This document shows, piece by piece, positions 16,426 to 55,065 of a stretch of DNA of 64,000 nt. Position 1 is the first letter of the stretch; the number at the start of each line of letters is the position of its first letter. The DNA is taken from NCBI GenBank assembly GCA_944326605.1, contig CALVEM010000003.1, positions 62,001 through 126,000 of the forward strand. The letters are read 5' to 3'. The notes under the pieces were generated by a model. That model saw only the letters and a list, made by a program, of their open reading frames with translations, searched no databases and was not told where the DNA came from. Both the position numbers and the translations under genes were made by a program. The stretch is from Candidatus Gastranaerophilales bacterium. GTDB lineage: Bacteria > Cyanobacteriota > Vampirovibrionia > Gastranaerophilales > Gastranaerophilaceae.

Positions 16426-17222
16426 CTAATATGTCATTTCCCAGTTGTCATTTAATATTTTCCCGAAACATCCCGCGCCATTCCAGGACTTTTTGCACAT
16501 AGAATTATAATAAGTATCTCTTATATCTTTAAGTGAACTGCCGCCGCAGATGCCTCTGGATTTGCAGGCAGGTGTAGCCCCCACTACATCTATTGAGCCG
16601 TCATCGTAAAATTCAACGTAGAATATATCTCTGCCACCTATATTAGGTCCCTGAGGACCATTTATATCAATTACCAGATGACCGTAATATGATGTAACTC
16701 CGTCAACAGTTGTAGAATAAACCTTAGGTGCATCAATAACAATTGATGCACCGCTTGCAAGAGTAACTACAGAAGCCATCGCCCAGTTTTTGTTTGTGTC
16801 AGTCGAAACTCCGTTTAAATTTCTATAACTTTCGGCAAAACAAGGTTCTTTTATAACAGTTCCGCAGTCGTTTACTACTTTAAAATAATTTAGAGTAAAT
16901 TCCTTCATTTTTGCCGCACTTGTCAATCCAGCTTCTCTTAGATTTACAGCATTTTGGTCCGTCATATAGCGGATAGAAGCCTGTTGAATTTCTGTATAAA
17001 CTTTATGTAGCTGTGTAACATAAACTTTTCTCTGGTGGTTTTGCATTAAAGTTGGTACGGTCATAGCCGATACTACACCAATAATCCCTAAAGTAACCAA
17101 CACCTCTGCCAGTGTAAATCCATAAAAATAGTTGCCAAAATTCCAAAACTCCCTAATACTGCTGGTCAAGCGGCTACGCTTGTCGGGGGGGGGGCAACTT
17201 CTAGAGCTTTTAAATCAATCAT
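16426..17222 (-). CDS. Pilin-like protein, out of frame by one C at a C10 tract
   Basis: The downstream frame encodes a type IV pilin-like/pseudopilin protein: cleavage-site region Y-G-F-T-L-A-E-V-L-V-T-L-G-I-I-G, hydrophobic helix, QNHQRKVYVTQLHK, and a Cys-rich C-terminal domain (NDCGTVIKEPC, ATPACKSRGICGG, NDNWEMTY). The only good start is the ATG at 17222, 9 nt after AAGGAGG and with a promoter at 17247-17275. Between this ATG and the pilin part lie 10 consecutive C (17194-17185) and the palindrome CAAGCGTAGCCGCTTG. With C10 translation stops after 18 codons; C11 (or C8) would join both parts with a 35-residue leader. A weak TTG at 17169 is the alternative start. A paralogue with the same arrangement is at 54032. 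Confidence 0.8.
17167..17194 (-). repeat. C10 homopolymer plus 16-nt palindrome, copy 1
   Basis: Ten G on the plus strand at 17185-17194 next to CAAGCGGCTACGCTTG (17167-17182). The same pair occurs at 54058-54084. Confidence 0.9.
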
Positions 17223-17246
17223 TTCTGCCTCCTTTTTGATATTTTT

Positions 17247-43684: not shown

Positions 43685-44728
43685 ATGCTTTATAAACGTT
43701 TTTTTACAGGAAAGAATATAATTTTTGCAGCTCTGGTAGTAATTCTTTTGTTAATACTACCAAAAATTATAGGGGTTTTAATGTTGTTTTTCGGAGCTTA
43801 TGTTATAGCCTGTGCACTTAACCCTTATGTTACAAGATTAATGAAAAAAATGAACAGAACAACTGCCTCATCAGTTGTTTTAATGGGAAGTATTCTTGCT
43901 ATAATTGCACTTTTTATTCCTATATTTTTTGTTGCTTATAAGGAAATAAAAACTTTTTTGATAACTTTACCTGAAAAAATAACAGATGTTACAAATTTTC
44001 TCTTAAATACAGAATTTATGGGGCATAAAATTCCTGAAATGTTCGATCCGGGAAGTATTTTAGGTAGTTCATCATCTTTTGCTCAAGGACTTGTTAATCA
44101 ATCCTGGAGTTTCACAGTTGCAATATTTCAGCTTGTAATGGTATCTGTTGCTTTAACTATGATTGTTTATTACATCCTTGCAGACAAGGCTTACTTGAAA
44201 AAGAAATTTCTAGAATTTTTCCCGCCTGATTTAAAAGATAAAGCGAATGAAATTTTAAGCAATATAAGCAATAAAGTCGGCGGATATGTCAGAGCACAAA
44301 TTTTGTCTATGGCTGCTGTCGGAATAATGATGGCCGTTGTTCTCGTTATACTCGGTGTTGAATATTCAACGCTTTTAGGGCTTATATCCGGTATACTTGA
44401 TATTATACCTATTCTCGGGCCTACAATTGCGCTCGGGATTATAATACTTGTTGCTTACCCTGCAGGAATAATAAAAATCATTTTGATTGTAGCGGGATTT
44501 CTGCTTGTTCAGCAAATTTCGAATTATGTAGTCAGACCTGTTTTATTTGGCAAATTAATGGAATTGCATCCGTTGATGATATTTCTTGCTTTATTTTTAG
44601 CAGAACAATTTTTAGGCTTCTGGGGAGTAATACTGTCTCCTGCAATTGCTGCAACAGTGTGTGTGCTTATAGATGAAATCTACATAATCCCTATGAATTT
44701 AAAGGCAAAAGATTCTGATGAGCAGTAA
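43685..44728 (+). CDS. AI-2E family transporter (PerM-like)
   Basis: A 347-residue membrane protein with about seven transmembrane helices, of the AI-2E/PerM/TqsA superfamily. Typical pieces: two N-terminal helices, GAYVIACALNPYVTRLMKKM, the long central hydrophilic part, KVGGYVRAQILSMAAVG, LGLISGILDIIPILGPTIA (the family's conserved I-P-x-x-G-P), and VVRPVLFGKLMELHPLMIFLAL. It may export signals or act as a cation antiporter; the substrate cannot be read from sequence. It overlaps the following radical SAM gene by 11 bases. Confidence 0.9.
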   Translation: MLYKRFFTGKNIIFAALVVILLLILPKIIGVLMLFFGAYVIACALNPYVTRLMKKMNRTTASSVVLMGSILAIIALFIPIFFVAYKEIKTFLITLPEKITDVTNFLLNTEFMGHKIPEMFDPGSILGSSSSFAQGLVNQSWSFTVAIFQLVMVSVALTMIVYYILADKAYLKKKFLEFFPPDLKDKANEILSNISNKVGGYVRAQILSMAAVGIMMAVVLVILGVEYSTLLGLISGILDIIPILGPTIALGIIILVAYPAGIIKIILIVAGFLLVQQISNYVVRPVLFGKLMELHPLMIFLALFLAEQFLGFWGVILSPAIAATVCVLIDEIYIIPMNLKAKDSDEQ

Positions 44729-53995: not shown

Positions 53996-54031
53996 ATAAT
54001 AAAAAAAAAGAAGAATTTAGGAGGATTAAAG

Positions 54032-55065
54032 ATGAGTAATAGAGAAGCATTGAACTGCCCCCCCCCCGCAAGCGTAGCCGCTTGAACCGCGACGTTAGAG
54101 CATTTTCAGGTTTTGTTATTTTTTTGACAGACTTCCTTTCCTTGTTAGGGAAGGATAAGAGGCTGAAGCCCAGAGGTCAATCCGGCGTTCAAGAGATCCT
54201 GAAACGAGTTCAGGATGACAGGACTAATCACCCTCTCCCTCAATCCCTCCCCCGAGGGAGGGAAGCAGAGAAACTCACTTCACGTTTCCTCCTTGACCCT
54301 TCACTGAAACGAACTTATCGTCCTAACGTCTTAACGTCCTATCGTCTAAAGAAATCTGCATTTACATTAGCAGAGGTTCTCGTTACCCTCGGCATTATCG
54401 GCGTTGTGTCTGCTATGACTGTACCGACTTTAATGCAGAACCACCAGAGAAAAGTTTATGTTACACAGCTGCATAAAACCTACAATGAAATGCAGCAAGC
54501 TTTTCTAATGGAAATGAATGAAAAAAATGCTCTTAACCTAAAAGAAGCAGGACTTACCTCTATTGGCATGATGGAGGGATTTATAAAAAGAAGATTTAAG
54601 GTTCTCGAATCTTGCCCTGCGAATGAACATTGCGCAAGCATTGATTATCATAACCTAAATGGGGATACAATCAATAACAATTCTATATTATCCTGGAATA
54701 ACGGAGCATGTGCCATTATTGCAAGCGGGGCTGAAATTTGCATTGATGCATTGCTGAATAGATCTGACAGAACACATACATATAATGGATACTCTTCTCT
54801 ATATGGATTTACTTTTATTGATGTCAACGGTGCCAAAGGACCTAATATTTTAGGCAGAGATGCGTTTATAATGGTTAATTGGGATGATGGTACACTTGAC
54901 ACTGTTAACGCAAGTCCTGCATGTCGAACAAAAGGCGTTTGTGACGGTGAATCACTTGAAGCAATCAGAAATGCAGCAGGTGCAGCATGTGAAGCGACCA
55001 AAACACATACAGATAACCAGTGCATTGGAAAAATATTAAATAATAATTGGGAAATGACTTACTAA
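54032..55065 (+). CDS. Pilin-like protein, out of frame by one C at a C10 tract
   Basis: The downstream frame encodes a pilin-like protein with KSAFTLAEVLVTLGIIG, QNHQRKVYVTQLHK and a Cys-containing C-terminus (ASPACRTKGVC, NNNWEMTY), clearly paralogous to the gene at 16426. The strong ribosome-binding site (AGGAGG) serves the ATG at 54032, but C10 at 54058-54067 puts translation into a stop after 17 codons; C11 restores the frame. The resulting leader before the processing site would be 110 residues, and contains translated copies of three dispersed repeats (GKDKR region, EILKRVQDDR, PLPQSLPRGRE). Without C11 only a weak TTG at 54082 could start it. Confidence 0.8.
54058..54084 (+). repeat. 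C10 homopolymer plus 16-nt palindrome, copy 2
   Basis: Ten C at 54058-54067 then G and CAAGCGTAGCCGCTTG (54069-54084). Same pair as at 17167-17194, in the same place relative to a pilin-like gene. Confidence 0.9.

Follow-up and report, generated by a model that had tools for sequence, protein, structure and literature searches.

A C10 tract near the start codon of a pilin-like gene, a candidate slipped-strand switch in a large and mostly OFF pilin repertoire of Candidatus Gastranaerophilales

Pilin-like genes and C10 tracts in the window

The DNA analysed, referred to as the window, was a stretch of 64,000 nucleotides (C3:62001-126000) from a 2.05-Mb, 26-contig Candidatus Gastranaerophilales genome (the own genome, G000). 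Positions without a contig name are those of the window. The first pilin-like gene lies on the minus strand and has a Shine-Dalgarno sequence (AAGGAGG, 17228-17234) and an ATG (17222-17220), both of which agree with the first-pass annotation. That annotation had also placed a run of ten C right after the start codon. A C10 tract, the presumed phase switch, is present at 17185-17194 on the minus strand (G10 on the plus strand), but it starts 28 nt after the A of the ATG, with 25 nt of coding sequence between the ATG and the tract, and does not immediately adjoin the start codon. As assembled (C10, OFF), the frame at 17166-17222 on the minus strand runs from ATG to TGA over 18 codons (MIDLKALEVAPPPTSVAA). 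With a tract of 11 or 8 (ON), translation continues over 16426-17222 on the minus strand (Pfam N_methyl, E 2.4e-5), giving a 35-residue leader, FTLAEVLVTLG from 17118, a pilin-like body and a TAG stop at 16426; the premature stop and the two opening lengths are those originally claimed. Directly after the tract, an inverted repeat, CAAGCGTAGCCGCTTG, occupies 17167-17182 on the minus strand.

The second gene, on the plus strand, has the same design, as had been stated of it: a Shine-Dalgarno sequence (AGGAGG, 54019-54024), an ATG at 54032, a C10 tract at 54058-54067 (G10 on the minus strand), and the inverted repeat CAAGCGTAGCCGCTTG after the tract at 54069-54084. The as-assembled frame at 54032-54085 (C10, OFF) encoded MSNREALNCPPPASVAA followed by TGA, a peptide of 17 residues, while the ON frame covered 54032-55065, with FTLAEVL from 54361 (Pfam N_methyl, E 1.3e-4) and a long leader built of repeat-derived sequence. 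Both genes are opened from C10 by one additional base or by the loss of two bases. The N-terminal methylation motif was the sole Pfam match of either protein and was above the cut-off, and the neighbouring genes matched RecG and CHASE2-adenylate cyclase. Relatives of the 17-kb pilin protein came from Candidatus Gastranaerophilales MAGs. The inverted repeat was also found near a G10 tract at G000:C1:176965.

Features of type IV pilin-like proteins, and genes for pilin processing and assembly, were present in the genome. The G/A|FTLxE cleavage and methylation motif with a hydrophobic helix was recognised in both window genes by N_methyl, and a search for the pilin-start motif returned FTLAEVL at about 100 sites, in about 100 genes. 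A prepilin peptidase (Peptidase_A24 at C1:233147) and an assembly ATPase (four T2SSE matches over the cut-off) were encoded.

Tract lengths, reading phase and leaders in the genome and its relatives

Homopolymers of G or C were counted in 1.22 Mb of the own genome. There were 249 runs of length 5, 11 of length 6, 3 of length 7, 1 of length 8 and 9 of length 9, followed by 74 of exactly 10, 2 of length 11 and 1 of length 16. Base composition predicted about 0.06 runs of 10 or more, compared with 77 found, and in the window shuffling predicted 0.22 matches to C8 or longer, compared with 6 overlapping matches (the two C10 runs). These figures, with in-frame homopolymers well beyond chance as in SSR loci, uphold the earlier argument against a chance origin. 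The lengths were unusually tight, with 85% of tracts at exactly 10 and length 11 rarer than 9 (2 vs 9); in Campylobacter, 53% of tracts are at 9 and 26% at 10 (PMC6321876).

A total of 70 tracts were located in pilin leaders of the own genome, and 67 of these pilins were ON at 11 or 8. Of those with a tract of length 10, 58/60 were open only at 11 (p = 1.7e-25) and only 4/70 were open as assembled (two G11, one G16, and one G10 in another phase), well under the one third expected for neutral drift (p 6e-8), p-values that overstate the number of independent observations, as paralogs share ancestry. One repeat unit opened or closed the gene in translations at neighbouring lengths. The start-to-tract distance took all three values modulo 3 and was compensated each time by the downstream part, and G9 and G11 alleles without frame compensation also exist.

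The tracts were not confined to pilins. A G10 or C10 in frame at 10 was found in two GT2 glycosyltransferase genes (C2:3445 and C2:120805), a GT8 plus methyltransferase gene (C4:50277), a radical SAM gene (C2:27094), an AAA/M41 gene (C3:13884) and a gene for a TrbI-like protein below the Pfam cut-off (C5:26905). Glycosyltransferase and other non-pilin tracts were therefore phased ON at 10, where the pilins were phased OFF. Glycosyltransferases are a classic phase-variable class, and with 70 pilin tracts and the GT2, GT2 and GT8 genes, surface-exposed or surface-modifying products were enriched.

Relatives carried the same design. Their leaders (loci L002-L087, n=97) had exactly ten G or C in 81 cases, needing one more base; G11 leaders were in frame in 4/5, and G9 leaders were off by two. 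The pilins were ON at 11 or 8 in 41/42 cases in genome G031, 33/34 in G036 and 84/86 at loci L008-L087. Genome G029 of the same genus had tract lengths of 9 to 15 with scattered phases, the sharp peak at 10 being lost, and in G068 (genus g5) most G-type pilins were open at 9 and C-type pilins at 10 or 11. Nearly every genome of the genus had between 12 and 169 exact G10 tracts, and one had none; genera g7 and g8 were also rich in them, most other genera having few or none. The first-pass annotation had made its case dependent on a variable tract in related genomes, and lengths of 9 to 15 were found in other Gastranaerophilales genomes.

Near-identical copies differed in tract length, both within the genome and between species. 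The closed G10 leader at C1:168730 and the open G11 leader at C12:44367 shared 99.3% identity in the 434 nt that start at the tract; as the identity starts at the tract, recombination rather than slippage could be part of the cause. Orthologs of two species, L022 (G11, open) and L062 (G10, closed), had 94.4% identity across a stretch of 1,002 nt that includes the tract, and L055 (G9) and L076 (G10) were 88.9% identical. A search of viral contigs for a relative with host flank, for strain comparison, returned none.

Between the tract and the pilin (6,212 codons in 58 genes), the pilin frame had 5 stops, confined to 2 genes, compared with 403 and 521 stops in the two remaining frames; reading through the tract into the pilin frame is therefore under selection. 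Short leaders had no ATG between the tract and FTLAEVL, and together with the selected open frame this means that the pilin must come from the upstream ATG across the tract. Nearly every upstream ATG in the family was preceded by a Shine-Dalgarno sequence. The leader after the tract reached about 700 nt of repeat-like DNA. Such long repeat-derived leaders are presumably tolerated because the prepilin peptidase cuts the leader off.

Two further observations were made on the leaders. Those of up to about 230 residues consisted of intergenic repeat families (..QEILKRVQDD.. and KDAKRRRCKAS..) kept in frame, for example at 54140-54330 of the window and at C1:120-170 kb. At L069, L077, L072, L025 and L010, a promoter-like TTGTAA-N17-TATAAT, a ribosome-binding site and a second ATG lay downstream of G10, about 120 nt before FTLAEVL; the upstream frame through the tract was nevertheless also kept open.

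A total of 45 pairs of own-genome leaders had at least 90% identity just after the tract and less than 70% just before it, so copying of leader blocks from one pilin to another, often bounded by the tract, appears to have taken place. Such breaks in homology would arise if leaders recombined at the tract or if repeat-derived DNA was inserted. Different pilins share near-identical leader blocks, at G000:C1:168731-169163 and on the minus strand of C12 near 43940-44376, that start precisely with the G tract and stop immediately short of the mature pilin.

Tract strand and the probable replication terminus

The G strand of neighbouring tracts within contigs agreed in 67/69 pairs, compared with only 28/54 for the pilin gene strand. 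Gene-strand bias as the cause of tract strand was rejected on these counts. In the own genome the tract strand switched in only two places, on C9 and C3. The C9 switch was located between 13.3 and 25.6 kb, around dnaN (C9:17971-19092). On C3 the G strand changed from plus to minus within 17195-54057 of the window, that is, between the two pilin tracts, and the replication terminus probably lies there. The GC skew of the window was by itself too mixed to show a terminus, and a search for a dif site to pin it gave no unique site, the best 28-mers belonging to a dispersed palindromic family. This family, ACTTCC.ATAATATTTATTATGTAAA, is dif-like but has many copies (G000 C7:74088, C1:150214, C2:188774, C4:62296 and others).

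In nearly all contigs the G strand of the tracts was the G-rich strand, and hence presumably the leading strand. Genome G031 gave the same picture, with 73 tracts and strand switches at only two places within contigs. Genes oriented with the fork had a G-type leader (n=48), and those against the fork had a C-type leader of different sequence (n=22). The tract context in the own genome was mostly TC-G10-C, unrelated genes included, whereas 8% of runs of 4-6 had C..C flanks. A T that follows a G tract is a recognised hotspot of substitution (PMC10710837). With T a hotspot beside the G tract and A to G a transition, C may be the most stable tract boundary. The replication-strand rule offers a testable statement on the determinants of homopolymer length and slippage in vivo.

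Probable slipped-strand phase variation and its alternatives

The reading preferred here, with a probability of roughly 0.84, is that the C10 at 17185-17194 is a slipped-strand (SSR) phase switch, one of about 70 on a large, mostly OFF pilin repertoire. The earlier designation as a candidate phase-variable locus gains support from about 74 G10/C10 tracts, their presence in related species, one-base differences between copies, and the selected frames. Slipped-strand phase variation accounts for the tract and the frames, for the length alleles and gene classes, and for the link to replication. We infer slippage as the cause, switching within the population, a pilus as the product and a benefit from host- or phage-driven diversification. 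Loss of mismatch repair as a source of hypermutability was rejected, with both MutS1 and MutL present and intact in the own genome.

In the proposed mechanism, the tract lies downstream of the start codon and ahead of the prepilin cleavage site. While it has its usual length of 10, ribosomes would leave the pilin frame and stop after 18 codons, and no 17-kb pilin would be made. A replication slip to 11 (or 8) would put leader and pilin in one frame, and the leader would presumably be cleaved at G|F by the prepilin peptidase. With nearly all of the approximately 70 pilins OFF at the favoured length of 10, each cell would express few and daughter cells would change the set, while a few other genes, glycosyltransferases included, would have the same tract ON at 10. 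The sharp peak at 10 and the uniform one-base OFF phase are accounted for by assuming a slippage equilibrium at 10 and selection for a low ON frequency. Against phase variation are the tight lengths and the near-uniform OFF state, where neutral slippage would leave about a third ON.

An unlikely, though not negligible, alternative is that a mobile element or dedicated machinery actively generates the C-G10-C tracts at length 10 on the leading strand, or keeps them at that length, with slippage serving as a programmed selector of a few pilins at a time and not as an ordinary neutral process. It draws on the sharp peak at 10 and the near-absence of lengths 6-8, the TC-G10-C context even in unrelated genes, the strand polarity and the frequent homology break at the tract.

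Somewhat less probable still is -1 programmed ribosomal frameshifting or transcriptional slippage, by which the DNA would be fixed at 10, a fraction of products would gain one base, and every pilin would be made at a low level. The nearly constant phase (the 67/70 of the own genome and the three counts from relatives) and the nearly constant tract length fit such a process, as do the slippery nature of ten C or G and the inverted repeat that follows at some genes. However, genes with C in the mRNA and genes with G in the mRNA share length and phase, and the tract obeys the replication strand and not the transcribed strand, its strand following the replichore. The direction of the shift was constant in most of genus g1 and in g7 but not family-wide, as opening lengths in G068 were 9, 10 or 11 and both lengths and phases scattered in G029. 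The uncompensated G9 and G11 alleles and the glycosyltransferase tracts in frame at 10 also argue against it: a length optimum at the DNA level with gene-specific selection of phase predicts both the ON state of non-pilin genes and the OFF state of pilins at 10, whereas a family-wide programmed frameshift does not. The inverted repeat was absent from most loci, and CAAGCG..CGCTTG was dropped as a frameshift stimulator since it occurs after the tract at few loci only.

A sequencing or assembly artefact, in which all tracts are truly 11 and were shortened by one base, had been named as the alternative by the first-pass annotation and is very improbable: Illumina-style assemblies of homopolymers can err by one and the same shift is seen at nearly every locus, but the same assemblies report 9, 11, 12, 13 and 16, lengths in G029 reach 15, MAGs of different projects concur on 10, and adding a base everywhere would break the glycosyltransferase, radical SAM and AAA genes, whose frames are uninterrupted at 10. 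Hardly any weight, likewise, is given to the pilin copies being decayed pseudogenes or starting at a downstream TTG with the tract irrelevant, since the TTG codons in the pilin frame at 17169 and 54082 both lack the Shine-Dalgarno sequence that nearly every upstream ATG has, short leaders offer no ATG after the tract, and a leader frame open over so many codons is unexpected for pseudogenes or untranslated sequence.

Most known cases of homopolymer phase variation are from pathogens, among them Neisseria, Campylobacter and Helicobacter. Neisseria opa and pilC are a multigene surface family and a pilus gene with their own repeat near each start codon, of which random subsets are expressed; the Opa repeats are CTCTT, located in the signal peptide, and the family has about 11 gene copies. 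The pilins described here likewise form a surface family in which each gene has its own repeat near the start codon, but the repeat is a homopolymer, the gene copies number about 70, and what is switched is the gene for the pilin itself. With the poly-G/C contingency loci of Campylobacter and Helicobacter they share an in-frame G/C homopolymer of about 9-11 whose change in length swaps ON and OFF, the involvement of surface-structure and glycosyltransferase genes, and tens of loci per genome (PMC6321876, PMC4965091). In contrast to those loci, one gene family holds most of the tracts, the peak is at 10 and not 9, almost all pilins are OFF at the modal length, and MutS and MutL are present. Campylobacter also follows a coding-strand rule, with only 5% poly-C (PMC6321876), whereas the tract here follows the replication strand. 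In Neisseria, pilE changes through gene conversion into a single expression locus (PMC11868660); as in pilE/pilS, a large pilin repertoire in one genome shows signs of copying, here between leaders, but every copy carries a ribosome-binding site, a start codon and a switch of its own.

No prior report of phase variation in Gastranaerophilales was found in the searched literature, and the one mention of homopolymers in a Melainabacteria paper of 2014 concerns read errors in amplicons. As far as that literature shows, the lineage, the scale, the replication-strand lock and the uniform phase are new. An uncultured lineage of gut commensals in the cyanobacterial phylum appears to apply phase variation to about 70 pilins at once, and up to 169 G10 tracts occur in one relative. 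If this holds true, gut populations would be made up of cells that differ in their surfaces, which would bear on host immunity and on attack by phages, and gene callers would miss or truncate most pilins of these bacteria. The uniform one-base-OFF phase suggests selection for few-at-a-time expression without a regulator.

Tracts in other sequence settings were seen in two relatives. None of the 27 tracts examined in G039 (genus g8) was assigned to a pilin; at its loci L244-L254 many G10 were flanked C..T and belonged mostly to short dispersed repeats (AGCGGTTTA-C10) that do not fall in long reading frames. In G029 (loci L228-L243), tracts were also located in sugar epimerase, polysaccharide deacetylase-like and glycosyltransferase-like genes, as named from reading their translations.
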